The position numbers and the translations under genes were made by a program. Positions 31,616-64,000 of a stretch of 64,000 bases of DNA are shown here, one piece after another (within the stretch, counting starts at the first letter, position 1; each line of letters starts with the position of its first letter). Origin of the DNA: Antedon mediterranea (lineage: Eukaryota; Echinodermata; Crinoidea; Comatulida; Antedonidae); contig NC_092679.1 in assembly GCF_964355755.1 (NCBI RefSeq), positions 5,332,001 to 5,396,000 on the forward strand, given 5' to 3'. The notes beneath the pieces are model-generated. The model did no database searches, was not told the origin of the DNA, and saw only the letters and a program-made list of their open reading frames with translations.

Positions 31616-32340
31616 ATGGATTCCCAAATTGAGAACGTCGACACGGAATTGGAAACCACGATAAATACTGGGGAGTCGGATATCAACCGTGGCCATCAGA
31701 ACCATAGCCTGCTGCCCCACAATTCGTTATTAAACAATATCGACAACACTCGGTCGGCGACAATTGTCGGATCGTTTACGGATGAAGATGTGAAAGCGTC
31801 GCTCGTCAGCTTTTCTCCGGAGCAAGTCGTATGTGTTTGTGAGGCCTTACGTCAAGAAGGGAACGTCGATCGTTTAGCTCGTTTTTTATTTTCTCTACCT
31901 GCAGATAATGCGCTTCAACGTCATGAACTGGTCCTCAGAGCTCGTGCGTTTGTTGCTTTTCGACAAAGTAGGTACAAAGAGCTGTATACAATTCTACAGA
32001 GCTTCCATTACAGCCCAGCCCTGCATGTTGAACTTCAAGATCTGTGGTATCGCGCACATTACAAAGAAGCAGAGGTTGCTAGGGGGCGTGCCTTGGGGGC
32101 TGTTGACAAATATCGAATTCGGCGAAAATATCCCCTTCCTCGAACCATCTGGGACGGTGAAGAGACTGTCTATTGCTTTAAAGAGAAATCAAGAGCTATG
32201 CTGAAAGATTGTTACAAACAAAATAAATATCCATCACCAGATGAAAAGAGGAATTTAGCCAAACTGACAGGTCTTACTCTGACCCAGGTTAGTAACTGGT
32301 TCAAGAATAGACGGCAAAGAGACAGAGCACCAGCAAGAAG
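31616..32340 (+). CDS. six4/5: Six4/5 exon 1 (SIX domain and homeodomain)
   Basis: Encodes residues 1-241 plus two bases of the next codon. It starts at the first ATG of the frame, preceded by stops. It ends CCAGCAAGAAG before the donor GTAAAT at 32341; without splicing the frame hits TAA at once. It holds the complete SIX domain and homeodomain. The overlapping 98-codon frame at 31908-32204 is a shadow. Confidence 0.95.
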
Positions 32341-35300
32341 GTAAATTACTTGAAATTTTTTTAAAATTTAACATACAAAAAAAGAGGGATATGACCGGTT
32401 GGGCCGCCGACAAGTTGAGCCGCCGGTAATTTCTATGAAACGCCCAGTGCGTCTTTTACGACATTTCGCGTAGTGATAGAGGGGTGTCCTAGTACATAAG
32501 TTCATGGTCTTTAGGTTTATTGTGTCATGAAAATAAATAATAATTACATACTACAATTGTGTTGGTTTGAACCGCCATAACAACACAGCAAAGGAAAGTC
32601 ATATTTAATAATTTAATTGTTTTTAATCTTTCAAATTCTTTCAAGTGCAGTGCACTCCATAATATTTTTCTCGCGTAAAATCATGTTGTCTCTCAGGACT
32701 AATAGAGTATTGATACTCTTCGAATGAGGTTAAATAATAATTATTTTTTATCTACTATCTTTTAATATCATATTTTATTGAATTTTACAATGTTAATACA
32801 CAAAATATTTTACTAAAAAACGGTGGTTTTATGCAATTATTTTACCGAAAAATGGAGTAGGCCTAGTTCATACAACTGCCGCCTAAGGGGGCAACATGTT
32901 TACGTCATTTTTGGCTAAAAACGATCATTTTCGGTCATGTTTTAGGCCTTATATTTTGGAATCTACAAGTCAGATATTCATAATTATTTCTCTTTAATTA
33001 TAATATTTAATAATATATACTAAAAACCGTGATATATAAACTTTGGAATATACATCGTTATATCTAATAATTAATATAAATAGAACTTCTATTAAATAGA
33101 AACGAGCACCGGCGAAAGTAAGCATTTGGCGTTTCATAGAAAATAACGTTTTTCTGGCGGCGGCTCAACTTGTCGGCGGCTCAACTTGGCCTAATCCAAA
33201 AAAAGAGACTGTGACATGTGGTGCAAACTGGTCCACATGAGGGGGGAGGGGATTAAAAATGTATGTAATGTGTTTAATAATAATTTATTTGGAAGCTACA
33301 GTTTTGAAACAGTGGCACACTTCTTGAATGAAGGTACGTCCAGAGTAAAGTAAAATAAATGTTAGAGAAAAAAAGTGATTTATGATTCTATAGCTTAGAC
33401 CATCATGGAGGAATTATTATAAAGTGCAGCAGCACCAGAACTTCTTAGTAAGACATTACTACGCTACCAATATTAAGAATTTATTATGGTGATTTTTATA
33501 TTATAAAGTTTTTTTACAAATAAATATATTACTGTATTTGGAAAGAAATAGAACTGTATTTTTTGTGATAATATTAAAGATGTATTGTCCCCCTGAAAAA
33601 ATAATAATGTAACATAATAATTATTCACCAAAAATTAGATCGAAAAAAAAATGTATTTACCTGAAAAAAATGTAATTCAAAGCAAAAAATGGTCAAATTG
33701 GCTGCCAGCCAATGGATTTTTGGTTGAATTTAACCATTTATTTTGTCATTTTACAAGTGAAAACATTATTTTTGGGTTTCTTTTTTTCTATGGAAGTGAT
33801 TAATTTATCAAAACTACAAAATAACATATATTCAAAGTCTGATTTAATTATTCTAAATGTTTCATGTTTTTGGGGGACAATACATCTTTAATGTACGATA
33901 CAGACTAGTGTCGTTCAATGCGTTAATAATTTGATTGACAGATCTACTAACAAATTGTTTATTCTCATTATCATTTCTTAATTGTTATATTCAGCTAGTG
34001 AATATACAATTAACTCTGTCTGGAACGACCCATGTTTATTTTATAGTTTGTTTATTCCCAATTAAAGTTATCTTCATCGCGTCTTTCCTTCCTTTGCCGG
34101 TTGTTTATTTGCTAATCTGTACTGTACTTAAAACTTTATTACTAAAAACCTATTTAGTTTCCTGCATTTATAAAACCACAACACATTGTATTTATTGGAA
34201 AACAATCGGAAGTTATAGTAAGGGTATTCAGTTTCCCAGTGACTACCTTTTATATCATACATTTATTATATTTATGTACTATTTCCAGGACAATTACTTG
34301 ATTAAAATTCTTGGATGTCCTAAACATTCATACTTACACGATACTGCAGTTCTGAACAAAGTTAAACAAAGATCACAGCTAAATTTTTCCATTTCAAATT
34401 CTGCTTCTAACAATTCTTATTTGGAGTTTTAATTTAAAAAATAACCCAGACTTGCCTGAAAAATACATTTACAATTGTAACAATTTTATCAATTATGGTC
34501 ACAGATTCCTATAATGAAATACATTGGCATGGCTCGGTTATCAGAACTATTGAATGGAGCTATGCAATTAAAATAGCTTCATAATCTCTGTAAAAAGAAG
34601 TATTAACAAGTACGTAATATAAAGATGTTTTTCCATGCTATATTATCATGGAGCTATCTAATTTATAGGTCCATGCTATTATAAATAGGCTTTTGTTTAT
34701 CCAATAATACGTAACAATTATTACGTAATAATACAATAAAGAGGAAATGTCGACACAAGTCTACAGTTAGTGGCCAGGGTATATATTAATAATTATACCT
34801 CCATCCATGGTATAATAGCGCAGTACATACATTTTGTAGAATGTATTTAAATACCAGATATTAAATTATTAATTAACTTATACCAACTGGCATTTTTTTC
34901 CAACCCTCCTTAAAATGAAGTTTGAATAAAATACATATAAAGTTTTTGCATTGAAAAACATTCATTCATACGACATACAACATACTTTATCATCTCCATA
35001 AGAAGAAATTACAGTAGCTTGTAAAACAACAAGGTAAGACATGACATAAAAACTAGTTCTAGATACATCGACTTATGTATGTTATTAAAATTGGCCTATT
35101 GCATAAAAAAGGCACGATTATAACAAGTCACAAGTCCAAAACATTCATTAATACTAGTTCTAGATACATCGACTCATGTACTGTTATTAAAATTGGCCTA
35201 TTGTATAAAAAGGCACGATGATAACAAGTTACAAGTCCAAAACATTCATTAATACTAGTTCTAGATACATCGACTCATGTACTGTTATTAAAATTGGCCT

Positions 35301-38300
35301 ATTGCATAAAAAAGGCACGATGATAACAAGTCGTAAGTCCAAAACATTCATTAATAGTAATACTAGTTCTAGATACATCGACTCATGTACTGTTATTAAA
35401 ATTGGCCTATTGCATAAAAAAGGCACGATAATAACAAGTCACAGGTCCAAAACATTCATTAATACTAGTTCTAGATACATCGACTCATGTACTGTTATTA
35501 AAATTGGCCTATTGCATAAAAAAGGCACGATGATAACAAGTCATAAGTCCAATTAAACTTGCTCTGATTAATACCAGCTGTTGACGATGTCGAACGCTTT
35601 CAGACTTTGTGATAAATCACTTTGCGGACCAACTTGCACTTTCACCTCGCATTCACCAAACAATCAATCATACTAGTAAATAAGGTATTCTTCAACACTA
35701 AATTAAAATACGAAAGTTTAACCTAATTTGTTAAATTATAATAAAATTATTATGATCGTATAAATATATTATACTTCGTGTTTTTATTCTGATTCACTGG
35801 GTTGCCTTCAAATTGATTGGAGGTCGGTAAAAGTCCACTCGATAGTGGATTACATTACTATTACTATTTGTAATGTTTTGGGGACTTCTTATTAAAAACA
35901 AGAAGATATCCTCCGCAAAACATGCAAAACAAAGATAAATACATAGTTTAAGAAAATGTTTTCTTTATAAATATGTATTTATTCATAGACAATTCCAGAC
36001 AATAAACTAATTCCTTATGATGAATCATTTTGTTCCTTTATTTTCTTTTAATATTATGGTTTTATTTATTTAATTTGAAATTTAAATAGAGAAGGTAACA
36101 TTCTCTGAACCATCTGCTATCCAAGAGTCCTCTCTTAAAATATAACAACTATACTTAAATTTAAATTAAACTCCAAACAATATAAGATATAAAAAAAAAT
36201 TTATCAGATAAATTTTTTTTTTTCGATCTAATTTTGGTCAGAGTGAATAACTATCATGTATAAATTTAAAATGGCATTCAACAACATATATATCTTTGTA
36301 CTGTAACACATGATTAATTAAAAAAAATATCCATTAATTATCCAAAAACAATAGGTTATAAACACAATAGGGTAAGCAAGCGCTAAAGCATCATTTATTG
36401 TACAGGTAACATTAAGAGTAGCTAGTTCAATCAATATTAATTTTTGCTGCAATGGGTTAAAAAAAATCAAGAAAAAAAAATTAATTATTTTATTTCGAAA
36501 TTAATTATGTCTTGTTCTCAGTTATTTTTTTTATAAACATGATTAATGTTTGTTTATCCACATGACCTTGTGTCCTACGGGACACTACACACATTTATAT
36601 AAACAAATTTTTATGGTAAAGTGGATGCATTTGAAGTGGTTATGCAGGGAGTTGGGGTTATGATCACAATTTGATTAGGTAGACTTTTTTTTTTATTGTA
36701 CAGACAGTATTAAGTTTGTGTATATTTTGTATATCGGTCGAGTGCCACTGCTATAAAAGTGTAAACTCCAAATAAATTATTATTATTTCGTTTATCATTA
36801 ATGTTTACATTTGTAATTTCAAATACAGTAATTAAAACATGGAACATCATCGTGTCTGTTGCTATGATACCGCATAAACAACTTTTCACTGATAAAACAA
36901 TGTTTGGATTAAACCATTCATTTGTCCACGTTTAACTCTAAAAAACGCTCATAAAATATGTTTGTGTGTTTTAGGGTTTTATACGCGCTACCATACAACA
37001 AATCACAAATCTGTGCGCGTTTCTTGTTTTTTAACGTTGTGTACAGTTGTTAAAGAAATACTTATAAGGACATGTAGACACTAACACAATAACAAACCAT
37101 CTTTTCATAAACAGACAAAAATGGAAGACGGAAAACTTTAAGAAAAAGTATAATTTTAGTGTATTGGTGATTTGAATGGAGAAAATATTTAGTTATAACA
37201 TACGATTAAATCATCTACTAGTACTAGGACCACGTGTTTTGATACACAGTAATGACTCATCAATCAGTTTATTTAAATTTACTGTTTAAGTATACTTCCT
37301 ATATCTGCAAATACAAATACAAAACTATTGTGTTGGTCGCTTATTAAAAGCATAATAAAAACACAAACTGTACAGTACATGTATTACCGATCACCATCGA
37401 GTTGTTTAACCTCAAGGCGTACTACCAGCCACACATTCCTATACCGGTTAGGCGTGTTATTATTGAATATCATTCCAGTACACAGACTATACGATTTATT
37501 ATTTTGTTATTCCTAGCGAGATATTAAAAATAGGCCTAATTGTACTGTCCTTCTAAATTAATAATAAAATAACAATTTTAAATATCATATAATATTTACC
37601 ATACCATTGTTTATACTTAAATTACAATATTTGCAAATTTAGGCCTATTATTATACTAATAAAACGTTATTCTATAAATTAAAACAAAAATTGAATAGAA
37701 CAGGGGAAAATCATAATGGCAAAATTTTTCCTACATTCTAGGAGTTTTATCAGGAGATAATCTATATTATTTTGACAACTCTTCTAACATGACTACAGTG
37801 CTGATTTTGGAAGAAACATATTGTACGAGGAAAGACGCTCCATAAATTTACATTTTTCATTCATTTTTTTTCATTTTTCATGAATTACACCAAGAAATAC
37901 CTGCAGAAATTAAGTTCATGCATATCTTGTAGAAATGACAAACTCAGATCTAGGAACATTTACGCATTGAATTCCAAAGCGAGCATTGTTTTATGACGTC
38001 AATGTTCCTTTACTTTGTGCAACTCCTTATGATTGATTTTTTTTTACCACCACAAGTGAAATATCCTCAATATATTCTCTCATACACTGTCCTTAGATTT
38101 TAGCTTTGTTTTGGGACTTTCCACAATGATGAGAATCTCCTCAATTAAGATGTCGTTTTTGAGATGTGACATGTCTTTCCGGCTAATGGATTGTTAAGCC
38201 TAATTAAGGTTACTATAGATAATGGTAAAGAAAGGGAGTGCTGATTGTATGCAGTACCGTACCGTATACTGGCACAATTAACTAGCGCCATGATTGATAC

Positions 38301-39708
38301 ATTATAATATCCATAATCACTGTAAACCTAATTATTCAAGTTTTGTCATTTAAGAAACGGACGTTTTTAGGACACCCACGACTTTGTTATTAGCCATCGG
38401 CTATATAGACCACCACACCTGGTCATTTTAACGCACCATAGTTTAAACTTGTCGCATCTCTTAAAATACGTTATGTATATAGAAATCAATAAGCGGTTAC
38501 AAAAATCATTAGTTCTAATCACACGGGAAAAAAACTTCTAACATTTTGAAGTTCATCCATGGCTTTTTACATGGCTTTAAGAATGGCTTTCATTTAACTG
38601 TAGGTAAACGCGTTTAACTGTAGGTAAACACGTTTTGATGAACACATTTTGCGTCGTATAGATCCAATAGAGCAAAACTGAGTAATAAATAATAATACAA
38701 ATAGGTCATTCTTATATAGCGCATATAAGCAAGCTCTCAAACTAGTTTGAAAAAAAGTGTGATGAGCCCAAATATGGTAGTGATATTGCTTAAATAATTA
38801 TGGTTACGTATTGATATGACATTATCATGTCCATATATGGGCAAATCACATTTTTTATAGAGTTGACAGAGCTTTAAAATAACAAAAACTGTACTATTAA
38901 TATTTTGATTTGAATTACTGGCTGTTCATTTAAATATTCGTTTCAAAATTTCTAACATTTTTGTTTTTTTTATAATAGTGATATGGAACACAATATGACT
39001 AATAATATGGAATCACCGGAAATAGGCCCAGAAGGAAAATTCATGCCAAATGGTAATGGACTGTCAAGCCCACCCATGGACGTTGGTGGCACACCCTCTG
39101 CAATCTCCTTGACAACTAAAGACACAAAATGTACTGTAATCAAAACAGAATTTGATTCAGACACACCGGCGGACGAATCTTGGCAGCACCATCTTGGCAG
39201 TAACAAACATACAAACCAACAAATAACATCACCAGTTTTTCCCGTCGCAGTTGTAGCAAGTGACAACGGACCTTACTTCCAAAACTCTGGACTTTTTATG
39301 AATCCGTCCTTACTTAGTTCCGCATTGGCGTTCTCCTCAATGAACACAACTGCGGCACAAGCATTTATGTCCACGATGGCTGCCAACGCCGCGTTTACAA
39401 ATACACCGCTTCCAGTACCAGCTACAACTGGTTCAACACATGCATCTACAGGTCTTCTTCCAATCTCGTTTCCAGCCGCCGTCCCAGCAAATTCTGCAGC
39501 GGTTACCAACAACGCGACCACTGAGTCCCCACAAGCACTGAACATCAGTAACTCAACGTTGACAACATTGACAACAGTAACACCTCTTTTGACATCTGCT
39601 GCTGTTAGCTCAATCTCTCCAATTACGCACACGACTAACGCTCTGCCAACTATCTCCACCTTGACGATGCCTCAACCAGTGTCGGTTGGTTCTTTAGTAT
39701 CGCAGTAA
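31616..39708 (+). CDS. six4/5: Six4/5 homeobox transcription factor (two exons)
   Basis: DNA-binding transcription factor of the Six/sine oculis family; family members act with Eya and Dach in mesoderm, sensory and neural development. Joining 31616-32340 to 38979-39708 gives 484 residues in one continuous frame (AG + T at the junction). The SIX domain runs from about residue 65 to 170 and the homeodomain from about 178 to 237. The ETVYCFK motif at 173-179 is the Six4/5 type (Six1/2 has ETSYCFK), and the recognition helix has WFKNRRQ with Lys at homeodomain position 50. The C-terminus is Ser/Thr/Ala-rich and carries a sumoylation-like IKTE. The protein is shorter than vertebrate SIX4 and SIX5 because the activation region is compact. 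The single intron is 6,638 bp. Subfamily assignment is strong. Confidence 0.95.
32387..33196. mobile_element. 810-bp inverted-repeat DNA element with 11-bp target duplication
   Basis: Flanked by an exact 11-base direct repeat, CAAAAAAAGAG (32376-32386 and 33197-33207). Inverted ends of about 50-60 bases share CGCCGACAAGTTGAGCCGCCG and TTTCTATGAAACGCC. No transposase frame, so it is non-autonomous. A target duplication of 9-11 bases and long inverted ends suggest a Mutator-like element (inference). It begins 46 bases after the Six4/5 donor site. Confidence 0.88.
33208..33573. other. Six4/5 intron, no element recognised
   Basis: AT-rich intron sequence between two transposons. Nothing recognised. 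Confidence 0.5.
33574..33891. mobile_element. TTAA-flanked MITE, copy 3
   Basis: A 318-bp element in the Six4/5 intron with TTAA at both ends and exact inverted ends AGATGTATTGTCCCCC / GGGGGACAATACATCT. It shares the internal palindrome TTGGCTGCCAGCCAA with copy 2. This is the best-preserved pair of ends among the copies here, so it may be a recent insertion. Confidence 0.92.
33892..35052. other. Six4/5 intron, AT-rich
   Basis: Contains the longest chance frame in the window (33935-34432, 165 codons). It is rich in Ile, Leu, Phe and Tyr, as expected from AT-rich DNA, with no recognisable motif or promoter, so it is not called as a gene. TATTACGTAATAAT-type palindromes occur near 34712-34735. 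Confidence 0.5.
35053..35556. repeat. Tandem repeat of about 101 bp, five copies
   Basis: Units begin CTAGTTCTAGATACATCGAC at 35053, 35154, 35255, 35363 and 35465 (spacing 101, 101, 108, 102). Each ends in ATAAAAAAGGCACGAT. The 6-base insertion AGTAAT in one unit and variation in an A run explain the length changes. The spacings of 108 and 102 are multiples of three, which keeps a 112-codon frame open by chance. It lies in the Six4/5 intron. Confidence 0.93.
35557..38978. other. Six4/5 intron, 3' part
   Basis: AT-rich intron with one recognisable transposon relic (36190-36290) and a 20-base direct duplication around 38597-38636 (units containing GTTTAACTGTAGGTAAAC). No extra exon is needed, since the phases of the two Six4/5 exons match directly. 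Confidence 0.5.
36190..36290 (-). mobile_element. Truncated TTAA MITE relic
   Basis: Read on the minus strand, this matches the left interior of the TTAA family (GTTGAAT, GCCAT, ATAGTTATTCAC, GACCAAAATTAGATCGAAAA). The terminal AGATGTATTGTCCCCC is lost. Confidence 0.6.
38979..39708 (+). CDS. six4/5: Six4/5 exon 2 (C-terminal region)
   Basis: Starts after TTTTTTTTATAATAG and reads T GAT ATG, completing AGT with exon 1. It encodes 242 residues to TAA at 39706: low-complexity, rich in Ser, Thr, Ala, Pro and Asn, with few aromatic residues, as in Six activation regions. TVIKTEFD contains a consensus sumoylation core. Long frames on the minus strand here (38970-39266, 39273-39659) are shadows. 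Confidence 0.9.
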
Positions 39709-40680
39709 CCAAAGATGTCATACAGATGCCGGCTCATCTGTCCATTGCTGTAAATTATATAAGTAGAGGCCTATGATGGAAAACGCTTCACGTCACGTCC
39801 ATTTTTTTCACACAAAAAATACACTGTTAGTGTTATCGATATGCGACTTTTAACTAAATTAATATGCAACTTAGAAATGTACAGTTAATATTTGTATTGA
39901 ACATTTTGTATTGAATAGGCCTATGCAATGTTTAATGTTTTAAAGTTTACTTTTGTTAATGTTTTAAACTAACAGTAATTACTACGCAAGTACGACACAA
40001 TATTAACACATTTAGTTCATAATGTTATCTGTAAAGTACATGATTTTATATTGTTAAACGATAAATAGGACCTTTTATTTCTTAATACTAAAGCACATTC
40101 GTTGTTGTTATTTTACGAGCGTTATGTTAAAATTAAATTTAAAATAGAATGAAGCTATTATGCAATACTTTAGACACATTCCAACATGGTGTACATGACG
40201 TAGGAAAGATTGACACGATGTGTCACCGAGTGTGCGCATTACTGATACAGTATTACTTTGGTCAGGTTTTTCTTTTAGAAGATTTTGCCTTTTCCTGAAA
40301 ACTAAGACAAGTGTGGCCGTGGGGAATAATAATTTAATACAGGTATTGTACTGTATTGGAATATTTGGTGCATTTTTGTAAATTTAATTTTATGAAAAGT
40401 TGGATGAAATGGAAACTATAGATTATTTTATACGATTTAGTGTATATATTACCATAGAGATTATAATATCTCTATGATATTACTTATCACAACTAGGTCT
40501 ACAACTGCAATGCATTTATGTTGATAATGTTTATAAATACTATACCATCGGTTGTCATACAATTTCAATTGAATGTTTTGACAGCAGACAGTTTCATTTT
40601 ACGTTGACATTTGCGAAGTTATATTCTTTTGTTTCCTTAAAAGATTGATGTCAAAGGTCGCAATAAAATTAAAAGTATTG
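39709..40680 (+). other. six4/5: Six4/5 3'UTR (probable)
   Basis: The first canonical AATAAA after the stop is at 40662-40667, giving a 3'UTR of about 970 bases. No competing gene is seen. Cleavage about 10-25 bases beyond is expected but not visible. Confidence 0.5.
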
Positions 40681-40778
40681 TTTTGCTTGGGATAAATGAT
40701 AAGTACCATATCGATAAATAAGGCGGCCCTCAAACTAACAAATATATATTAACACGTCAATAGCGAACTTTAAAGCAT

Positions 40779-40925
40779 GGTTTCTACTAGAAACAAACGC
40801 AACGACGTATGCGCAACAATACAAGTGAGTTGACCAATCACAATCGACAGTCCAGATGATCCATCTTGTTTTGAGATTACAGCGCCGACGCACTTACGTC
40901 ATTGCGTTGCGTCCTAGTGGGAGCC
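40779..40925. mobile_element. Short inverted-repeat MITE, about 147 bp
   Basis: The left end GGTTTCTACTAGAAACAAAC and following GCAACGACGTA are mirrored on the right by TTACGTCATTGCGTTGCGTC and CTAGTGGGAGCC. No clear target duplication. The interior includes TTGACCAATCACA. Superfamily not assigned. Confidence 0.7.
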
Positions 40926-40936
40926 TAGATTGAGGT

Positions 40937-40960
40937 CCATGGAGGAAATTTCCTCCATGG
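40937..40960. repeat. 24-bp perfect palindrome
   Basis: CCATGGAGGAAA followed by its exact reverse complement. Similar half-words (CATGGAGGAAT or its complement) occur near 3144, 33403 and 44500, which suggests a small dispersed palindromic repeat. Confidence 0.8.
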
Positions 40961-43319
40961 TCAAACATATAACTTTGGATTTGTCAGCTTCAGAAATTAC
41001 ACACTTTCTAAAGTCTATATTACCCATGTTTGAGTAACCCACATTCTGTAAAATAGTTTTTGTGTAATATTTTTCTATTTAAATTTTTCAATATGATCGC
41101 CTTACTGTTATTATTATTATTACAGTATTAGATTAGTATCACATCTTTTTAAACTCTTTTCGCCTATTGTTTTAGTAGGTAATTTTATATATAATACAGT
41201 ATAAACAAAATAGGTAAAATGCTAGACTATCGTTGAGCGACAATAGAAAAAAAAATTGTAACAAATTGATTAAATTAAGTTGTAGATTTTTATATTGTAG
41301 TTAATCGTTTTAATTCCTTGTGCAAGAAATAAGTGTGCTCACACACGATCATAAACATTGTGCTTATATATCGCTTATTAGTACGATGACTTTATTTCAT
41401 CAGTCAGACACAATGATGACACATTCGACAAACTCCTCGGAATGAGACACAATGAAACCGTTCGACAAACTCCTTGGAATGCATTAAATACGTTGACCAA
41501 GTGGTGTTATACAGGTTCATTCATGATTAAAACCGCGTCGTATATTTTATAAGGACCTCTACTATCAATGGGCCTATGTATGTATAGTACAATGTTAAAT
41601 GCCACTTACATAGATCTGCGTATGATGAGCCTAATTAACATGCATGTCATAAAAGTAATATTGAAGATATTTAGCCTTCAAAATTTCAATATCATTTCTC
41701 AAGGATTAATTACCCTTTATCAAACAGAAGAGTTCGAGTTTAGTTATGTTTTTTTTACGGTTTACTATATTTATTTCAGCATTTTGTCTTCCGTTAAAAC
41801 AATTTACCGGGTTAAATCTCGAAAATCGGAGCCGAATTAATGAAAAAAGATAAATTAATATTACCTATACTTTTTCTCAACTACAGTATTACATTAGACA
41901 AAGAGAAAGAGGAGATGATATCTGCATCTGGATGGAGGCCCGTATCTAAAACCTATCTAAAATTTAATAATGTTGTTAGAAGAACAACAGTAATATAACA
42001 GCGATTCAATATGACGTAAAGTATAAAACGACTTTTTTGTTGGAAATATATATACAGTAATCTAGTAGAAAAAAAGAATTTCAATTATTTTCGATTTGAA
42101 TGTATTAAATGCATTGTTGGGTCCCGAAAGTGCCTCTTAAATAGGAGTTAAATTTTATTTTATTATACAGAAAAATACAGCATTCGATCAACTATTTCAA
42201 CTCATGTAAACAATTCAGAGTTTCAATCACAATCACAAAGAAAAATCAATTATTTTATCATTTTTGCACGAAGACGAAATTAAACCAAAGGGCATTACCT
42301 AAAACAAGGAACGGTATTGTTTGTTAACTCGCTCAGTACGTCATCACCGAATGTTTGACCCCGAAGGAACGCGGAAACACGAAGTAGAAAATATCACGTC
42401 GATTAAATCATATTATAAATAAAGAAGTCATAGTATTAAATAATGTAATAGCCTAGTAGGCCTGATCTAGTACCTCTATTAGTTTAAAGGGATTTGAATT
42501 TTCAACAGATAAAAAATTACTGCTTGAATATTGAAATTTAATAGAAATCTAATTAATGTCTCGTTTAGATCGTAATATAGTATTTGATACCAATAGTGGA
42601 GACCTACAATCATGGGCCTACATCCGTATACAGTGTATGTGTAATGTAGGGTGTATAGCCGGTACAAAAATGCAATCAATGAAATCATGAGTATTGGTAC
42701 AGTAAAATATTGTCTTGCTTATACGGGTCTATACTATCTTTGGAATTGTGATTAGAGTGCTTGGTTATTTATAGAACATTCCTGAACCACGGGATTCTCT
42801 CCTTTTAAATTCAATTGTTCCTATTACGGGTACATACATCCTATTCAACAATGAAGGGAAGTACAGTAAATACAACATATTACAGTATAATTTATTTATA
42901 GTATGAACTAGTTCAGTGAACAGAAACTAGATTGCTTTCTTTTGAACATTACAAAATTCTGCTATACCATGAATTCCTCCATTTTCAACTTCGAGGAAGT
43001 TTTAAAAATGTTCATAAAAACACCTGTCAGATGACGCAGTGTTTGACATTTACATGTTTTATACAGTATATGAAAATAGATCATGAAGCTCATATATGGC
43101 AGGATGTACACCCTACTACTGTACCACATTTTCCGTAATAACAATTTCCGGTATTACTTCAGTAATGGGTTGTTCAAAAGTATAGAGCACAGGTTGTTCA
43201 ACCTAAGTCGGTTATATAGATCTTAGACAATGCTAAATGATTGTATGAAAGTGACATTCAATCTCTCCTTTTGACATAAGGAGAAACTAGATAACATGAT
43301 ATTTCAATGTTAAGATAAG
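40961..43319. other. Intergenic, no gene seen
   Basis: AT-rich spacer. A short imperfect duplication around 41403-41483 shares ATTCGACAAACTCCT and GAGACACAATGA. Open frames of 60-90 codons are unrecognised. Confidence 0.5.
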
Positions 43320-43640
43320 TTTTCAAGTATAATCTACAAATTCCTTTTATGGACAAGAAACAACAGACTAACGAGAAATAGGATAACTTAATTAAGAATG
43401 AAATTAATGAAAGATTATATATAAATGAAGCTATTGTTATGTTTAAAATTATGAACAGCCTTGCACCTCCATATTTATAAAATAAGTTTAATATCGAAAA
43501 CAATTAATATAATATTAGAACTAAGCCAAATTGAATACAGTAGTAACAAAAACAAACTACAAAAAACGTAGCTTATCATAGAGGTCCCAAGGTTTGGAAT
43601 GAGCTAAATGAAGACTTTTTTTGTTAGTAAGTGTATCACG
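43320..43640 (+). pseudogene. Decayed LINE reverse-transcriptase ORF, 3' end
   Basis: Translating across several stops and frame changes gives words typical of the C-terminus of CR1/L2/RTE-type non-LTR ORF2 proteins: a segment with RLYINEAIVMFKIMNSLAPPYL-like order (given here only as its pattern) followed about 40 residues later by RGPKVWNEL and a stop. The GPK.WN motif after a 'K.xNxLAPPYL' motif is the recognised signature. It is clearly inactive and truncated at its 5' end. Confidence 0.65.
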
Positions 43641-43868
43641 GTTTCATTTTATTTTATTGTAATTGTTTTATTATCTGCTTTGATAGTCATTAGGTCTTTT
43701 TACATTTTGGGTGGGGGGGTGTTTTCTTTTGAGCACGGCCTTACGGAAAAACAACTTTCAGTTGAGTTAAGTATCTGTGAGTATCGCTGAATTACTGCAA
43801 ACGGCAGTGTCAAACACAGAATAACCAATCAAAAAATCGGTACAGGTTTCCAATAACTTAAAAAACAA

Positions 43869-43946
43869 GGTCATATACATTGCTGTAGTCGCGTGCTCAA
43901 GTTAGTGTTTACCGACCAACCGACCGAACATAGTGAGCTGTAGAGT
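43869..43946 (+). repeat. Dispersed repeat R1, copy B (truncated)
   Basis: Matches copy A at 29169 through CATATACAT, AAGTTAGTGTTTACCGACC and TAGTGAGCTGTAGAG, but lacks the GCGTTGCACGCGAC end. Confidence 0.7.
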
Positions 43947-44657
43947 TTAAAAAGTTTATTTGAAGCTTTACTTGTGAATTAGTGTCCAAATTGTAGCGGA
44001 AAAATGGAAGAAGAAAAAGTAACCACTAACACCTTCCAGAACGTCTCAATCGAAGGATGTGGTAAAGCGCTTATCGTCTACGTTTTTTTTTATATTTGAA
44101 TCACAAATGACTGGAAAACAATCGATAAAACTAGCGGTGAAACAATCATACTGGCAAAATGTTGAGTGAAACCGCTGAGTATAATCTCCGACATAAATGT
44201 TACGGAACACTTGATAAACGAGTATTGTCGAATGAATGAATGCGTACATTTTCAGAGGCGAATATCGTGGATGATCACGAAGGATTTAAACACTGATTCC
44301 TCCGTGAGTGGTTCCACTAGAGAGCAACCATGGTAGATTAGAAATGAATTTGATTCTTCCATATGGCTTGATCCACCAGAGAGCAATATTATGACGAATA
44401 GAGTTGTTTCCACCAGAGGTGAAGCATTGTGAGAAAACAATCTATACTACACAACAATTACAATAACTGCTTTGTCAATCCACGGAGAAATAACTTATTC
44501 CTCCATGCTATATCATTCTGCACTGGCAGAATGACTCAAAACGAAGAAGAGTTGTGTTTACTACTACGTTTAGGTGATGTGTGGACTAGTTTATACAAAC
44601 ACAACATAAATACTGTACATCTATGGGATTGCAAGGGTATCAATCAACATTGGAGTG
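43947..44657. other. Intergenic, no gene seen
   Basis: Three related words near 44310-44430 (TTCCACTAGAGAGCAA, ATCCACCAGAGAGCAA, TTCCACCAGAGGTGAA) look like a degenerate internal repeat. Open frames here are short and the 117-codon frame at 44429-44782 ends inside the SINE, so it is not called. Confidence 0.45.
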
Positions 44658-45512: not shown

Positions 45513-45536
45513 ACATTACCTACACACATATACAAT

Positions 45537-48700: not shown

Positions 48701-51700
48701 ATGAAGACCAAATATGGAAAAATACTGTATTTTACGATAAATACCCTTAAACAGAAAATATACAAAGTCCAAAATACAATATTGTGTATACATGTACTTA
48801 CAAACTACTAAAGTTCAGTAATATATTAATATTACGATAAATTTACTCAAAAACAACAATGCCATTGGTAACAGTGCCTCCTGATAAATTAGCAAAAAGC
48901 TAAATCAAGACTTACTAAACAGCCATTGAAAATCTATCAATACAGTACTCAGCATCAATCACACAAAAATAAAATTTGACCTATGACCTGAGTAGAATAC
49001 CTATAATTTTATCATCCACCATAAACAATTTCTCATCACATCAGTATCTTGTAAAACATGAAAAAACATAGAAAACCGACCAGACTTTACTGTGTGTATC
49101 TGAATTTGATTTGTTCTTTTCCTCAATTTTGGCAGCATCTTCTTCACCCCCAAAGCTGGTAATGAACGTTACTTTGCCGGAATCTTCCGGAGTGCTTGAG
49201 CGACTACCGGAAGATGATCTCCTTCCATGACTTGGGTATGGATCGTATGTAGGACTATCTCGACGTGCATAGCTGTAAAAAAACAAACAAAAATAGAATA
49301 CGCCTGAATTAATTGAAAGTTTGATGGGTAACCTTGTAGCCAAAGTAGTATATACTGTATTTCTGTCTTTTTTAATGCACAAAACATTATAAAAAGGTAT
49401 TTGGTATGTCTAAATTACCTGGGTGGACTAGGCACTTTTTTCTCTCGAAGACGTTTTTCAATATATGCCCTCCTTTCCCTTCTTGATTTACGTCCCTGGA
49501 AAAAAAATAAAAAAATAAATTAAAACAAATCTGCACACGACAAAAGTGAATTGATTTGGCTTGTTGATGTTCATCGAACATGAACTGAAATACTGTACTG
49601 TAGAGGGGGCTACACTCGTGTATGGTCAAAATTATTAGCTGTGAATTAAGAGTAATATTCTGTACATTATGCCACAGGGGTCACTCAGAGTAACACAGAT
49701 ATTTTTATCTTCATTTATTTATATAGCATCACAAGAATAACTATCATTAATTCATTGGACAAGTTTCCTATATCCTTTTATAAATGACTAGTGAAGCTCA
49801 TTAATGTGGTCTAATGGTGGGTATAGGAAACCTGCTATTTCCTCTGTATAATTAAACTATTGTTTTATATAATACTTATATTTAGCCTATTGATAAGATG
49901 CCCTTACTGTATTACATTAATAAGTGGTAAATACCGGAGGAAAAATTTTTACTTCCTCTTGTAAGAGAAGGGATAATCACAAATGCTTTCAATTTGGGAT
50001 GAACGAAGACCTAGTTACAAACTAGGTTAAGTCAATCGATGTGTCATAGGTCGTTGCCTAGACCTAGAGAACACCAAAGCCATGTTAAAGGGCCTGTTTC
50101 TGCTGCATAAAAATAACCGGTTTAAAACGCTGTGACTAAATTCATTTTCCATTTTCTTGGGAGCAGAAACAGGACAATTCTGTGGTAACCGGTTAAAAGA
50201 CAGCGCAAAATAACCAGTTAAAAACAGAAAACCATATTATCGCTGAGCAATTTTTAGCTGCAATACGAAATAACGGTTATTTGATTGACAGCTGCTGACT
50301 TTGAGTCAACTACACTGCAGTAACGTTTGGATTAACTGCCAGGACCAAAAATTGAGCAGAAATGCAGTCGAAACAAAAATTACATTTTTGAAATAATAGG
50401 TTTATTCTGCGCTCTTCAGCAGAAACAGACCCAATGCGTTTAGTGAGTAAGCATTTTGCAACATCTCTGCATGCGTACAACGAAGTAAAAAGAAATGAAT
50501 GTGACAATCCCTGTACTGGTTTATCTTTATTTTCACTTATATATAATGTATATCACAAACAAACAAACAAACAAACAAACAAACAAACAAACAATAAGTA
50601 AAAATAAAGATGAACAAGTACAGTACATTACAGAATTGGCCATCTAGAGGTCAATCTGTTTGATGTTAGATCGTCATAACTTCTGAAGAAGCTGTCCGAT
50701 CAGGACAGCGAAACTGTCAAGGTTAGTTTATATACTAATTGTTGGTTTGAAAAAAGAACATTTCCAATAAATTATCACTACAAACCAGATGAACATTTTC
50801 AATCATATATTGTGTATGTCATTGTATTTTTATGAGAGCGCTTGTGCCTTTCATGAATTTTTTGCAAGGAACAAATAAATCTGAATCAACATGTTTCTTG
50901 CAGTGATTGGGGTCACATATTTCTAGTACCCAGGTAATTTTGGTGACAACTTACGGAATACATTGCTCTCTCTTCTTCCTCTGCTTTTGCCTTCTTTAAG
51001 TTTTCAGCTTCTTCTTTCTCTTTTTGTAATAATCTAACAACAAAATAAATGCAACATTTTAAAATGGTTAGTAGAGCAAATATAAAGAACAAGTAGCCAT
51101 TAGTAGCTATATTACCACTAAAAATTATAACTTTTCCATACAATAGCACTAATACTAAATATCATGTGATACGTAATTAACCAATCAAATGATAATACTA
51201 TGAAATCTACTTACTGAGTGAATTGCTTTGCCGCTAGGCCATATTTTTCCCCAACTTGATTTACTAAAACCACCTGTTCGGGATTAAGTTCATCTATATC
51301 TAAATTTACATTATCTGAAAATAAATTGAAATTATTTAAATTTGAAAGCTCTGGTCTCTTCCTCATTTTTTTTTCACTGAAAGGAAATAAATAAATTATA
51401 TCTATGAAAGCTATGTTTGTGTAGTACTTTTTAGTATATTAATATTTACCTATTTCCAGGTCACTAAGACTATCATCTGTGTCGTCGTCATCATCATCAG
51501 TATCATTTGCCTCTTCCACTGCGTTGCCACCTGTACTGTCTTCATAGCTAAACCCTATTGCTGCTTTCTTTGTAGTTAATAACCTTTTGAGTAAAAGAGA
51601 CATTATATTTATTACATTGGGGTATTTTCTACTGGTGGAGTACATTTTATATTTATTACATTGTAGTCATTTCTATGGGTTGAGTACATTTTATATTTAA

Positions 51701-53807: not shown

Positions 53808-54330
53808 TTTGATTCATTACAATAAACAATACAGTATACAAAAATTCTAGGCCTACTAACCAGAGGATTTGCATGCGCCTGCTGCAGTACTTCGATGGCC
53901 GCGGCGGTGGTAGGTGTGGACGACACGCGACGTGTTACGGTTGAATGATTTCTTTCTCTTGTAAATGAAAAGCGACTTCAAAACATCAGCGATGAAATAC
54001 GCTCGCCTTATGGTTTGAAAACCATTTTCATGATATTTCTCATCGACAAAGGTACCTAGCCATTGGTATTTTATAGTTTACCGTTGCTGCTCTATCTGGG
54101 TTACAAGAAGTCAGAGATATTTACAGATAAAGAAACTTTGTAAGAACATAATTGAATTAAAATTACAGATATAGTTAGTTTTAGATTTACAGATTGATGT
54201 GGTGAGGGAAAAATTATAAGCATTAATTGACAAACAGCCTCCCAACGGTAGGTTTTATATGCCCGACTCTAGGCCATTCCAGCAGCAATTGTGTTACTGT
54301 TATAGTGTTGTTTTTCACACGGTAAGTCGG
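53808..54330. promoter_or_regulatory. Probable bidirectional CLASRP/ninein promoter
   Basis: The segment 53870-53945 is the only clearly CpG- and GC-rich patch between the head-to-head genes, containing GATGGCCGCGGCGGTGG and CGACACGCGACGTG. No TATA box sits at a useful distance. A GTAAGT donor at 54322 could end a non-coding first exon of ninein. The shared-promoter reading is inference. Confidence 0.5.
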
Positions 54331-55980: not shown

Positions 55981-55989
55981 ACTTTGACT

Positions 55990-57190: not shown

Positions 57191-57610
57191 GTAAGTATCC
57201 ATTTATGTAGATTTTTATATAGAATAAATTGACAGTCAACAAGCTGTTGTACACATAAAGTTGCAATTGATTCTACTGAAAGGCAATCCATATAATTAGG
57301 CAGCACTATGCTTTTAATTTTGTTTTTACATTTGGCTGAACAGGTACTGTACTGTTTGTTTGCATTGTTTTTTTGTGTTTAACTTGTGTCCATTTCTCTA
57401 TGTATACAATACAGTATTTTGCTAAAAACATGTCTAATTTAAAGTAGACTAAGTTATGGAAGAAATATTGATAGTGAACTGGAGTTTTTAATGGAGACCA
57501 TAACATTTTGGTAATTCACTTATTACTGTAGGTCATCATATAATGTTATGATAAAAAATTTACCTTAAACGCTATTGTAATCAATTTTATAATAGCGGGG
57601 AAACTCCAGT

Positions 57611-57793
57611 ATGGACGAGACCGACAACGATGTGTATGTCGACCAGCTGAAGGAAGTCTTTGACAGCTGTGATGTCAACAAGAATGGAACCTTAAATCGC
57701 AAAGAGCTAGCAGAGCTCTGCAAGAAGCTTCAGCTGGAAGATCAAATTGACAACCTCTTAGGAGAACTACTGGGGGATGCTCAAGATGGACAG
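57611..57793 (+). CDS. NIN: Ninein coding exon 1
   Basis: Exon begins at 57596 after TTTATAATAG; ATG at 57611. Encodes 61 residues with the first, canonical EF-hand loop at 21-32. Donor GTACAG. Confidence 0.94.
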
Positions 57794-60700
57794 GTACAGT
57801 TACTTATTCCAAAATAAGTTCTTTTATGCTTTTTTTGTTTAAATTGTTTGAAAATTCAAATTTAATATAAAAGATTCAAAATAACTCTCCTTGAGCAGGG
57901 GTAATGATTTTCTGAAAAGTACTGTATGTACAGTTAAAAAGAATTTGGGCCCTTTTAGGGGATTTTCATGGGGCCAGATCAGCTGCTTTAGAGTGTTATC
58001 CTCAGTAAAGCATCATGTTATTCAAGCTATTTGTGATTTCTCTTCACTTCTTTTAATGTAGGTTGATTTTGAAACATTCAAAGAAGGATTTGTAATGATC
58101 TTATCAGTCGATATGGACAGTATTGGAAATATGACAGACACGGAAGATGACCATAGCGTTGCTGATATACTAGATAATCAAGGTATAAAATGCAAATTCA
58201 AATATAACACTAAAGTTCAACATTTTAATAACATGAAGTAAACTTTATAATAAAGGTTCGGTTATAAAGATAGTCAATTACCCTCCAGAAATGATGGCAC
58301 CCCAAGGCACCATTTGAATTAAAGAATAGAGGCATCATTAGGGATGCATCAGTAAGTTAAAAATTGGAAAGGCTGAATTGATAAAGTAAAAACACATGTC
58401 TTATAATGATTGGTAGGTCATGAGTGAAAATGACATTAATTGTGTTTAATGATTTGTAAAAGGCATTTCCAGATGATGCAAGTACCAAACAGTATAATTT
58501 AAAAGTTAATCAGACTGATAGATTATTGACCTAGGTTGACCTCATCTCGTTATTCCAATATAGTTTCTTCTACTTCTTCATCTGTGAAATTAGAAACGTG
58601 TGGAATGTGAATTTTAGTCTCATGTATGAGTAGTTTTAGAAATGTGATATGTTTGATATCTTCAATGTTACTTTTTAATTAATATTAGCATTCCTACACT
58701 AGTCCTTGCTGTTCTAAAACAATACTGTACTGTATTTCACTTAAAACATAGAATTAATTTTTTTAAACTTTCTTGTAGGAGTACACCATGTAACTCCAAA
58801 ATATGTTAAGGGCGAGAAGAGATATGGTCGACGCTCTAGGCCAGATTTTGATCTTGACTATAGCGCCGATTTCTCCGAGATCGAATCTGAACCAATATCG
58901 CATAGAAGCAAGAAATCTGAGAGCAAACGCGAAATTAAACAAAATAGTAAAAAAAGAGATTTAATGGATGATAATGTTTTTAGTGAGAAAAGTGCTAAAC
59001 GAGACAAGTTTAAGGATGCCAGGACGTTATCATTTGCTGATAGTATTAGTGAGGTATGTGACTATTTTGGAATATAATATTTGTTTATGAAAAGATTCAA
59101 ATAGAACAGAAAAAAAAGTTTTCATTTTATTAAATTCTGTTGTCATATCTTAAGGATCAAGAAACACTGTTCACTTTTCTTCTTTTATATTTGTAGATGG
59201 AAGAAGACAACAAAAACATTCTTAACGATGATCTCTATGATCAAAAGGAAGAAGTACCAGATATTAATGTAGAGAGTGGAAGTAAGAAGTCTTTGCCACC
59301 AAAGAATGAAACATTTGAGGCTGAAGGTAAAGTATTTTAACGTGTCAACCAAACGTTAATGTGGTATTCTGGACCAGATATACACCATTGATTATCCTCA
59401 AACTTGAATAACAGCTTTTTTTCCTGAAATTTGTAAGGTACAGTTTCTTGGACAGTGAATCTGAATATGTTTACTATATTCCTTGTTGGACATTTGTCAA
59501 ATTTTTTATTCGCAAATCTTTGAAAATTCTCCACTGGATAATATGTCAAGTTAAAAACATATTTTTTCTTCTATTAATATTTCCAATTTCAACATAATAA
59601 TTACTTATTTGTATCATTCAGGTCAATTAAATGCTTCCATGGGCCAGTTTGAAATTGGGAGTCCAACGGATGAGGATCAAGTGCGAGCCATCTGGGAAGA
59701 AGTTGGAGTTGGGAAAGATGGATTCCTTAACTTGAAGGAACTTGCTTTAGTCTGTGAGCACATAGGAATGGAAGACATGGATGATGAGGTATCACTATTA
59801 GTTACAGTACAAAATGAATTATATGCAATTTATTATAACATTGTAAAATGAGTTACCAAATTTTCACATTCACATGATTCCAAATGTACTATATTACTGT
59901 ACGTAGCTAGAATATTTAGTGTACTGTATATAGCGATACAGTACTGTACAGTAATATGTAATAGAAACCCAAATGTGGACTCAGCTTCCATATAATGTAA
60001 ATTAATAATAATAAAATAATACATTTTTGTTGTAAATAGGAATTACAAAACCTTTATAATAAACTTGACCAAGATGACGATGGAAAAGTTGGTTTTCACG
60101 AATTTCTTGAGGGCCTGTTTCGACACGATAGCACCCGTGCCCCAACTACGCCACTTCCTGCCACTCTCTCAGCCACACAAAAGGTTAAGCTTCGAATGGC
60201 TGTTACTGGCAACTCAATGGAAGAGTCGATGCATCGAGCAGCAACGCCCTCAGTGGGTACGTTTCAGGGAAGCAATCTGCTGAGTATTTTAGATGCTGAT
60301 AATAGTGGGTATGTACTGAATTTCGGTGTTTTATAGAATGATTTTTTTAAATAAAAATGTTGAAAAGGCAAAGATGAAATTCCCTTTAATTTAAAATTAA
60401 CATAAAAATCAAAAGTGCAGTTCAGAATTGATGGTATACAAGAAATGTTTGTATTAAAAATGTAAGCAAAAATGTGGGTTTTGCTGTTAATACCAATAAA
60501 TCAGAGACATATGTTTTTATTGTATTTTATTAGATTAATTTTTCCATGCATACATCAAATTTTTAAGTATTGATTTTTTCATTGCAACTATTTGTCATCA
60601 GCGTGCTGTATTAATTAACAAAGAAAATAAAATCTATAAATATACCAATCCAATGCTTGTAAGTAATTAAAACCTAATTAGCATAACAATAGCCAGTATT

Positions 60701-63700
60701 CAGTGTATGCCAAACAGATGGAAGTCTATATCAGATTTCATGTCATATTTCTCAAAAAACATCCGAGCACAAGGATGAAATTATGTTTCGGAAGTATTTT
60801 TCCGACTTTTTACCAGTTTATCAGACAAGGAATTATAAGGAGAAAAGAAAAGAGTAGGTTTTCTGTTTCAATATTTTTTGTAGGTTTTCATGCTTCAGGG
60901 AATTTCAACGTGTTGTTTCTTTTTATGGTTTATTGCTAAAATATGCTGTGAATAGGTTTTGAAGCGTTAATTTTTACTACTTCTTAATTTGTTTAATGTA
61001 TGTGTTGATTTAAAGGTCAGGTGCGGGCAAAAAATTTCTATTAATCATACATTCCAATAATTATCGATCCATAGTTTCCCCTATGTTTCATAATTTTTGG
61101 GATTTTATTTGTGTTACACGAGCTTGTTGAAAATAAGCCCTTTCTTATCAGTGGGGGGATAGTTCAAATTACACAGTAAAATCTCTATTCTTTTGTACAC
61201 AAATTTTGTAAATAGAGAGGCATTTTTTAAAAAGCTCTGAAAAATAAATGGTGTGGTAAAAAATGTTATCCGAGACTAAATATAGGTAATATAACTTGAA
61301 TATTACATTTCTGATATTTTTATTCAACATCAGATTTTTATTTTCATGCTATAGCTAAAATTATCCACCGTATATCCACCATCTTTTTTCACCGTCTAGG
61401 GAGTCACCAGACATGTTATTACATTAGGTTAACTACCTAACTATTGAAAAAAAATCTTCCTGGTTTTTATTGAAGAATTTTGCCAAATTTTGTATTTGAC
61501 CATATTAAGGGAAATTCATGTTTATTTCATTTCGATTTCTGTTACAAATATTTGATTTATGTACTATTAACCAAATATTATATTTAAAATTCATGCCTGT
61601 ACCTGAGCTTTAAGTTTACCATCTTGGGGAGACTCTAAACTATATTCAGGGAGGTATACCTTTTCTGCTATCGGTGTAATTTTATAACAATATTTCATAA
61701 ATAATTAATTTTAATAGTAGTTTCTTAAATATTAAATTAGAGATATTTAATATTAAACGTTTGTATTTTTACCAGGTATGTCACTCAAGATAGTCTCACA
61801 GAACATTGGGAACAACAAGGGATACAAAATACCCCTGAAGTACTCAAGGTTGGTCTAAGTTCACATAACCATTCCTTGTGATGTGTTTATTTTTAAACTG
61901 ATGTAGGCATCATTCTCTCACCTGGTATATCCAAACTATTATTAAAGTAATATCAATAAACCTGACCCGAAACCTACCATACTATCCAACATGTTAAACT
62001 TTACTTTAACCACATTTAGAACCTTTTATCAAAATCATTCAAAAGGTTGTTTTAATCTTTAAAAATTAAATGTTTGTATTTTTTGCATTTGTATTTCATC
62101 CCTTTTGTGTCGTACTGTCTGTTTTACCCATTTTATTATGTTTTTATATGTGACAAGCAAGACACATTTTGAGCCATGACAATTTTGATAAATAATAATT
62201 GAGGGATAAATTAATTAATTTGTTAATAAATATAGAATCTGGACATTGACACAGAAGCAGGGAAGATCAACATCTCAGAACTGTCTATGGCTCTTGAACA
62301 TGTACTTGTGACAACAGGTGACAATGATGGAATCTACCAAGCAGCTCTCACAAGCTATCAGATTGAACTTAAACACCTCAAGTAAGACTACAATGTCTCT
62401 CTTTTACATCCTTTTTAAATTCATTTTATGAGAGCATTACTTCCATAAAATCCTGAAACAACTAAATCTTATTGGATTTTTTTTTCCTGCAGGAATCAAC
62501 TAGATGCGTCCATAGATGAGAACAACAAGCTGAAGACTGATGTAGCAGAACTGCATCAGCGTGGAAATATACTGGCGGCCGAAGTTGATGATAGACATGC
62601 ACATTTGGAGAAATCAAATGAAAACAAATTAAGGTAACATTATCTGTTGATGAAACTGGTAAAGCGGGTGTTCAAGGTAATGCCCGAGTGGTGAAAGTCA
62701 TGCTTAGAATGAAGACAAACAATAGATGATTATAATACTGTAATCAAATTAAAATGTCTTCTTAATAAGAATCGTGTGGTAATGGTAGCAATTTTCTTGC
62801 AGAGACGAAAGATTGAGAAACCAGGAAAAGATGACACTTTTACAGAGTGCAATTGAGAAAGAAAGAGAAATGATGACAAGTCAGGCTGCAAAACAAAAAC
62901 AAAAGCTAGAAGATGAAATTGACCGATTGAAAGCAGAGGAAACTGGTCTCAGAGAGAAAGTTACAATTTTACAGAAGGTAATAATTTTATACTTTAGAAA
63001 TTACCTTTAATCTTTGAGTATTAACAATAAATCATTATAGTGCATATATTTCTACATGCTTATTTTTATTTACAGGAAAATCTTCGAATGGAAAAAGATA
63101 TTGGAGAATATTCAGAGAGGCTAGGTGTGTTAAAAAAAGTGAATCAGAAGTTACAAAAAGAAGTGGATGGGTTTCAGGAATTAGAAGCAAGGGTAAATAG
63201 AAATACTCTTAAATAGATTTTCACATTTCCTGTTTTGGGGATAATACAGTATTCTAGTATTTTTTTGTGTAAAATCATGTTATTTTTTAGCTTGCTGAAT
63301 GGGAGTCAAGTCGAGCTAATATGACTAAAGAACAACAGGATTATTACGAGCAACAAATTAGAGATTTTCAGCAACAAAACAGGGTTAGTAAAAAGATTAA
63401 TATTAGTAGTTCCTTGGAAAAAATGTGTCAATCTAATGTCACAAGATGAATATCAATAAAATCAGGAATATAGACCAAGTTTGTTTAATTCTTAGATGTC
63501 CATATTATCAGTAAGTTGTTATTTCTTTTTTTTGCACTGTGATTATGTATTCTTACCATATTTCTTCAGGAGATGCAAGATCGTCTGGATGAGGTTCACC
63601 AGGAACTATCCATTACCAAACAGCAATCAGTTGAGAAGAAGGTCCGTCGTAAAGGAAGCCGTTTAAAAGATACCAATAAACCCAATAGGCTTGGATCTGT

Positions 63701-63968
63701 CTTATCGGATTATACTAAACCAGTTGTGGTCAAAAGAAGACAGTCATCATCAGGTTAGTGGAGATGTTAAGCTTCAATACATATACAGTATTTGTTGGCA
63801 GTGTTGATTGGACAATTAACCATTGGATTTAAACTTTTCCAACAGAAAATGAATCCGATATTGAGGATTCATCAAGTGGAACTACCAGAAGGCAGCTTCC
63901 TGTCGCTCTAAGATCAACTGGAGATGGAGGGTCCACAGAGGGAGAGGATCCAAAGATGGATATGGAAC
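57611..63968 (+). CDS. NIN: Ninein/ninein-like centrosomal protein, N-terminal 14 coding exons
   Basis: Centrosome and microtubule-anchoring scaffold; vertebrate NIN and NINL are paralogues and this gene resembles both. Fourteen exons in consistent phase encode about 732 residues before the window ends. EF-hand-like units lie at residues 21-32 (DVNKNGTLNRKE, canonical), a shortened one near 55-70, one near 265-280 without a leading Asp, 302-313 (DQDDDGKVGFHE, canonical) and 377-388 (degenerate). The family motif PKYVKGEKRYGRRS is at 108-121. A Gln/Glu/Lys-rich coiled coil starts near 450. FKEGFV and NKLDQD resemble NINL, while KRYGRRS resembles NIN, as expected of a single pre-duplication gene. 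It continues past 64000. Confidence 0.95.
58062..58182 (+). CDS. NIN: Ninein coding exon 2
   Basis: Acceptor TTTTAATGTAG, donor GTATAA. Encodes VDFETFKEGFVMILSVDMDS, completing the second EF-hand-like unit, then an acidic stretch. Confidence 0.94.
58779..59053 (+). CDS. NIN: Ninein coding exon 3
   Basis: Acceptor CTTTCTTGTAG, donor GTATGT. Carries PKYVKGEKRYGRRSRPDF, the strongest family signature, then a long Ser/Lys/Glu-rich linker without known domains. Confidence 0.95.
59197..59326 (+). CDS. NIN: Ninein coding exon 4
   Basis: Acceptor TATATTTGTAG, donor GTAAAG. Encodes an acidic, disordered linker ending FEAEG, matching the YEAEGQL motif of vertebrate NIN across the next junction. Confidence 0.93.
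59622..59788 (+). CDS. NIN: Ninein coding exon 5
   Basis: Acceptor TATCATTCAG, donor GTATCA. Encodes QLNASMGQFEIGSPTDEDQV and the EF-like unit WEEVGVGKDGFLNLKELALV, close to WEELGVG of NINL. Confidence 0.95.
60040..60308 (+). CDS. NIN: Ninein coding exon 6
   Basis: Acceptor TGTAAATAG, donor GTATGT. Carries the canonical loop DQDDDGKVGFHE, FLEGLF, and a Ser/Thr/Pro linker, then the first half of the DADNSG loop. A 72-codon frame in another phase is a shadow. Confidence 0.94.
60309..61009. other. Ninein intron 6, 5' part
   Basis: AT-rich intron. An open frame at 60703-60939 is unrecognised and taken as chance. Confidence 0.45.
61010..61613. mobile_element. Second TTAA-flanked MITE family
   Basis: A 604-bp element in ninein intron 6 with TTAA at both ends and inverted ends AGGTCAGGTGCGGGCA / TGCCTGTACCTGAGCT (three mismatches). 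It is different in sequence from the AGATGTATTGTCCCCC family but uses the same target. No transposase frame. Confidence 0.8.
61776..61848 (+). CDS. NIN: Ninein coding exon 7
   Basis: Acceptor TTTTTACCAG, donor GTTGGT (non-optimal). Completes the DADNSGYVTQDS loop and encodes HWEQQGIQNTPEVLK, matching W.EEGI.N..EILK of the family. Confidence 0.93.
62236..62381 (+). CDS. NIN: Ninein coding exon 8
   Basis: Acceptor ATAAATATAG, donor GTAAGA. Encodes NLDIDTEAGKINISELSMAL and YQAALTSYQIELKHLK, matching ALDFSLDGNINLTELT...QAAL of vertebrate NIN. Confidence 0.95.
62493..62633 (+). CDS. NIN: Ninein coding exon 9
   Basis: Acceptor TTTTTTTTCCTGCAG, donor GTAACA. Start of the continuous coiled coil; LAAEVDDRHAHLEKSNENKL matches the family's ASEVDDHHAAIERRNEYNL. 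Confidence 0.95.
62803..62977 (+). CDS. NIN: Ninein coding exon 10
   Basis: Acceptor TTTTCTTGCAG, donor GTAATA. Coiled coil with EKEREMM and QKQKLEDEIDRLKAEETGLR, matching ELEQEIEKAKTEENYIRDRL of NIN. Confidence 0.95.
63076..63192 (+). CDS. NIN: Ninein coding exon 11
   Basis: Acceptor TTATTTACAG, donor GTAAAT. Encodes ENLRMEKDIGEYSERLGVLK and a further coiled-coil stretch; ENSRLE in the vertebrate proteins corresponds to ENLRME. Confidence 0.94.
63291..63383 (+). CDS. NIN: Ninein coding exon 12
   Basis: Acceptor TTATTTTTTAG, donor GTTAGT. Thirty-one residues of Gln/Glu-rich coiled coil (TKEQQDYYEQQIRDFQQQNR). Confidence 0.92.
63570..63753 (+). CDS. NIN: Ninein coding exon 13
   Basis: Acceptor ATTTCTTCAG, donor GTTAGT. 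Begins EMQDRLDEVHQELS, corresponding to LQDQVDELQSELE of NIN, then turns basic (KKVRRKGSRLKD, KRRQSSS). Confidence 0.93.
63846..63968 (+). CDS. NIN: Ninein coding exon 14 (last in window)
   Basis: Acceptor TTTTCCAACAG, donor GTAAGT. Ser/Glu/Asp-rich low-complexity segment with TTRRQLPVALR, similar to RRRQLPGL of NINL. It ends with one base of the next codon; the remaining coiled-coil exons lie beyond the window. Confidence 0.9.
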
Positions 63969-64000
63969 GTAAGTATGCTATGTTATTTATAAACTAAATC

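Follow-up and report, generated by a model that had tools for sequence, protein, structure and literature searches.

A Six4/5 gene followed by CLASRP and ninein ends an ordinary Six gene cluster on a chromosome that probably descends from a linkage group multiplied in vertebrates

When genes that are split over several human chromosomes lie side by side in an invertebrate, does their order preserve an ancestral neighbourhood, or does it reflect descent from one ancestral chromosome? This question is raised by a stretch of 64,000 nucleotides of contig C10 (C10:5332001-5396000, hereafter the window, whose own numbering is used for positions given without a contig), in which Six4/5 on the plus strand, CLASRP on the minus strand, and ninein on the plus strand are consecutive. 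The human counterparts CLASRP and NIN lie on separate chromosomes, neither of them adjacent to a SIX gene. An earlier note on this DNA had read the three genes as a possible relic of deuterostome linkage predating the vertebrate duplications. Our results indicate that Six4/5 is the end of an ordinary Six (SINE) cluster, on a chromosome probably derived, at least in part, from an ancestral linkage group that was multiplied by those duplications. The genome comprises 354.4 Mb in 18 contigs, none of which gave a match in a COX1 search, so that a mitochondrial contig is not among them, and C10 holds 25.04 of 354.43 Mb, or 7.07% of the bases. Domains were called with Pfam on candidate exons, and coding potential was assessed with a codon scan of both strands, which can miss short or fast-evolving genes, so that an empty interval is not proof of absence. 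CLASRP and ninein were placed by tblastn with human proteins as queries, Six homeodomain identities refer to human SIX sequences, and the local gene order around Six4/5 was read in this one genome.

The genome was searched for Six domains, and with 12 of 12 candidates scored there were exactly three matches, all on the plus strand of C10 (at 5220780, 5297395, and 5363811) and spanning 151 kb. The homeodomains of the three were 96.5, 93.0, and 84.2% identical to those of human SIX3, SIX1, and SIX4, respectively, and the Six1/2 and Six3/6 genes sit 66 and 143 kb upstream of Six4/5 on the same strand. A Six domain is present in all three genes (called by Pfam for the gene in the window), the homeodomains of the other two were read from their frames, and the codon-scan pieces scoring above 14 between the linked genes were all repeat-like or poly-Asp. 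The three genes form an intact Six3/6-Six1/2-Six4/5 cluster on a single strand, with Six4/5 in third place and each family present as a single copy. According to one study, the SINE cluster is conserved across bilaterians, its genes being linked in the tick and kept on one chromosome in vertebrates (PMC10726417), and a snail genome paper calls it typical (PMC8848322). The cluster described here shares with these the linkage of the three families on one chromosome and one strand, and its Six genes are no different; the accessible sections of the two papers do not name CLASRP or ninein as neighbours (PMC10726417, PMC8848322). Since the core Six cluster is reported bilaterian-wide in those sections, the present findings do not restrict the linkage to deuterostomes. 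The cluster as such, already described across bilaterians, is the main feature of the locus and was absent from the earlier note. The part of the Six1/2-Six4/5 interval that lies within the window (1-31615, no strand assigned) contained no convincing coding exon, the best weak piece scoring 10.8 in 1-31347, and is possibly a regulatory landscape. It also contains a tandem array at 7909-8150 (62-bp unit, 3.9 copies, 97% match). No Rfam family scored above its gathering score in the window or in the 234 kb scanned around the block.

The chromosomal setting was compared with that of the human counterparts. NIN is located at human 14q22, NINL at 20p11, MNAT1 at 14q23.1, STRN3 at 14q12, and STRN at 2p22; FOXA1, FOXA2, and FOXA3 are at 14q21, 20p11, and 19q13.32, and ERCC1 is at 19q13.32, near SIX5. 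SIX1, SIX4, and SIX6 map to 14q23.1, SIX2 and SIX3 to 2p21, and SIX5 to 19q13.32 (PMC2211742), where STRN4 and CLASRP are also found together with SIX5 (PMC9355243), and chordate linkage groups were quadrupled in vertebrates (PMC7269912). The post-duplication human SIX loci resemble the present locus in carrying the same three Six families (PMC2211742), with CLASRP at 19q13.32 too (PMC9355243); here, however, one undivided chromosome holds what several hold in humans. MNAT1 was found at C10:3.42 Mb, FoxA at C10:7.18 Mb (90% identity, with the next of 29 forkhead matches at 74%; its open frame is whole), and striatin at C10:16.86-16.87 Mb. A TF_Otx search gave no match anywhere in the genome and was uninformative on linkage. 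Three of the four informative markers of human 14q, 19q13.32, 2p, and 20p11 were therefore on C10; the probability of at least three of four is 0.0013, and of at least three of five, counting Otx as a miss, 0.0032. Taken together with the presence of CLASRP and ninein, these placements support assigning C10 to the 14q/2p/19q13.32/20p11 linkage group that predates the duplications, on a small sample of markers. Against this assignment, ERCC1 was placed on C1, so that there is no one-to-one correspondence between C10 and the human regions, and the markers were few and picked by their human positions rather than fixed beforehand, with FoxA added once two hits were known. An SFSWAP-like second DRY_EERY gene on C3 and FYRN matches on C8 and C2 were incidental placements on other contigs and not designed controls.

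Some further genes were seen near these markers. A forkhead gene 57% identical to FoxA lies at C10:3386512 on the minus strand, about 35 kb from MNAT1, and a weak forkhead match (38%) was seen some 76 kb beyond the window, at C10:5472305. Pieces of a coiled-coil gene at C10:7198495-7215509 on the minus strand, 21 to 38 kb 3' of FoxA, were judged by eye to be possibly mipol1, and mipol1-foxa is a known pair (PMC11175523). The deuterostome pharyngeal cluster (nkx2.1, nkx2.2, pax1/9, foxa, and mipol1) is a separate cluster of which the Six genes are not members; FoxA here is 1.8 Mb from the Six genes on the same chromosome.

All three genes of the window had been correctly named in the earlier note, as judged from Pfam domains and, for CLASRP and ninein, collinear tblastn matches. 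Six4/5 exon 1 (31616-32340, plus strand) encodes the Six domain and homeodomain (SIX1_SD, 2.3e-44, and Homeodomain, 5.2e-14, at 31616-32344 on the plus strand) and ends at a GT donor at 32341 that was read from the sequence; its homeodomain was 84% (84.2%) identical to that of SIX4, compared to 75% for SIX1 and 61% for SIX3. Exon 2 (38979-39708, plus strand; coding score 31.4 in the codon scan), which encodes the serine/threonine-rich C-terminal part and matched no Pfam family, follows an AG acceptor at 38977-38978, joins exon 1 in frame, and ends with the stop TAA at 39706-39708. Two exons were thus found in a plus-strand span of 31616-39708, there may be further ones, and on its sequence the gene is identified as Six4/5. 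Its intron holds a tandem array at 35045-35552 (102-bp unit, 4.9 copies). CLASRP (45678-53807, minus strand) is supported by a DRY_EERY domain at 52398-52631 on the minus strand (1.3e-20) and by seven collinear minus-strand pieces matching the human protein from 53807 down to 49131 at 41 to 82% identity. The C-terminal part of the human query gave no tblastn match at an E value of 0.01, and codon-scan pieces rich in arginine and serine (RS-rich) reach down to 45678, the last coding-like piece, which sets the lower limit of the gene. The 5' part of ninein begins at 57611 on the plus strand and runs through position 64000 and beyond the window. EF hands scored above the Pfam cut-off in two of the three pieces tested (57596-57814 and 60040-60336, plus strand) and below it in the third (59618-59830; 0.014), and four collinear plus-strand pieces from 57611 to 62634 matched the N-terminal part of human NIN at 29 to 45% identity. 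The codon scan traces coding-like coiled-coil exons as far as roughly C10:5400109, 4.1 kb outside the window, and the block does not end with ninein at 63968 as had been supposed. Both neighbours of Six4/5 are of housekeeping type, CLASRP being an RS-rich protein involved in splicing and ninein a protein of the centrosome.

Six4/5 and CLASRP are convergent, with 5,970 bp from the Six4/5 stop to the lowest CLASRP piece, and CLASRP and ninein are divergent, with 3,804 bp separating their ATGs. In the first interval (39708 to 45678), a tandem array at 45279-45509 was the sole source of codon-scan pieces, and the second, from the CLASRP ATG at 53807 to the ninein ATG at 57611, yielded no more than three weak ones, at 53846-53962, with scores of 7 to 8. 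The lists of open reading frames added nothing beyond the array and weak pieces. No convincing gene separates Six4/5, CLASRP, and ninein, as had been claimed, within the limits of a scan that a short or fast-evolving gene could escape. The array at 45279-45509 (29-bp unit, 8.1 copies) lies just past the CLASRP 3' end, and its long open frames on both strands are attributable to chance. Beyond ninein, two coding-like pieces at C10:5406018-5407217 on the plus strand belong to a gene located before the next neighbour; neither matched a Pfam family, and the longer (5406798-5407217) had a best PDB match with an E value of 0.51, which is not meaningful. That neighbour, at C10:5414071-5415630 on the minus strand, roughly 18 kb beyond the end of the window, carries Folate_rec and GSDH domains and is presumably an HHIPL-like gene. 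Several neighbouring coding-like frames at C10:5432465-5434345 on the plus strand resemble a transposon or recent insertion, and the two that were tested matched no Pfam family above cut-off.

The locus had been taken to come from an invertebrate deuterostome, and this is probably right. The mature miR-2008 sequence had one exact match in the genome, on C6, against 1.6e-4 expected by chance. The site folds as a hairpin of about -40 kcal/mol and matched the Rfam family RF03355 (mir-2008) at 93.5 bits, just above the gathering score of 93. A near-palindrome of this kind is expected to score on both strands, and the opposite strand of the hairpin reached 55.7 bits, short of the gathering score. 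The bantam microRNA had no match in the genome at one mismatch or fewer. Since mir-2008 marks Ambulacraria and bantam marks protostomes, the hairpin and the missing bantam match indicate that the genome is probably ambulacrarian.

How the three genes came to be adjacent was weighed among several explanations. The intervals of 5,970 and 3,804 bp that now separate them, next to a cluster conserved in its own right, would fit an ancient local block of the deuterostome or bilaterian ancestor, held together by Six4/5 regulatory DNA in or beyond CLASRP and ninein, and the shared 19q13.32 location of SIX5 and CLASRP points the same way (PMC9355243). We consider such a block unlikely. In humans, about 0.7 Mb and many genes lie between SIX5 and CLASRP, and about 10 Mb between SIX4 and NIN. 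A literature search of partial coverage found no paper joining Six4, ninein, and synteny, which does not make the adjacency unreported, and none joining CLASRP, Six4, and ancestral. It is similarly doubtful that Six3/6-Six1/2-Six4/5-CLASRP-ninein forms an undescribed microsyntenic block predating the vertebrate duplications, in which Six4/5 regulatory DNA held the bystanders in position and from which the duplications left SIX5 with CLASRP and SIX4 with NIN on separate copies. A recent adjacency, in which C10 was rearranged internally in this lineage so that CLASRP and ninein came to lie by the old Six cluster, has a better claim, if somewhat less than an even one: the human counterparts are not adjacent, and according to a sea anemone paper macrosynteny usually goes with a scrambled local order (PMC10719294), but the sequence bears no breakpoint mark and the Six cluster is intact. 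It is very improbable that the human proximities are coincidental and that ancestral linkage went no further than the Six cluster. The position of ERCC1 off C10 and the use of only four informative markers would allow this, yet three of those four lie on a chromosome with 7% of the genome, besides CLASRP and ninein.

We consider descent from a multiplied linkage group the best explanation, and a probable one. C10 would descend, at least partly, from the group multiplied into segments of human 14q, 2p, 19q13.32, and 20p11, which would have retained different subsets: SIX1/4/6, NIN, and MNAT1 on 14q; SIX2/3 on 2p; SIX5, CLASRP, and STRN4 on 19q13.32; and NINL and FOXA2 on 20p11. Long-range regulation in their wide intervals probably kept the Six genes together, and CLASRP and ninein may be their neighbours through chance placement in the linkage group, or else as bystanders in a region that contains Six4/5 regulatory DNA. 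Chromosome-scale conservation plus the vertebrate duplications would account for the human split of SIX4 and NIN from SIX5 and CLASRP. For a given gene, the rough chance of lying within 0.7 Mb of SIX5 is less than 1/100 and within 10 Mb of SIX4 about 1/100; the human proximities are closer than chance on this rough count, and the linkage group explains them. Its proposal of linkage predating the duplications holds at the scale of the chromosome, where FoxA, MNAT1, and striatin share C10, and is not supported for the three genes as an ancestral unit, since neither human SIX5 and CLASRP nor SIX4 and NIN are adjacent and ERCC1 is on C1. The three-gene order alone was rejected as proof of ancestry because members of a linkage group should share human segments however they are ordered locally. 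The human pattern neither needs an ancestral three-gene neighbourhood nor shows one.

These findings document, in a genome that is probably ambulacrarian, an intact Six cluster together with the genes to its right, linked on one chromosome with FoxA, MNAT1, and striatin, and they agree with known bilaterian linkage groups and two vertebrate duplications. If the local order were ancient, it would provide a marker for rebuilding the 14q/19q13 paralogon and would indicate where old Six4/5 regulatory DNA might be sought.

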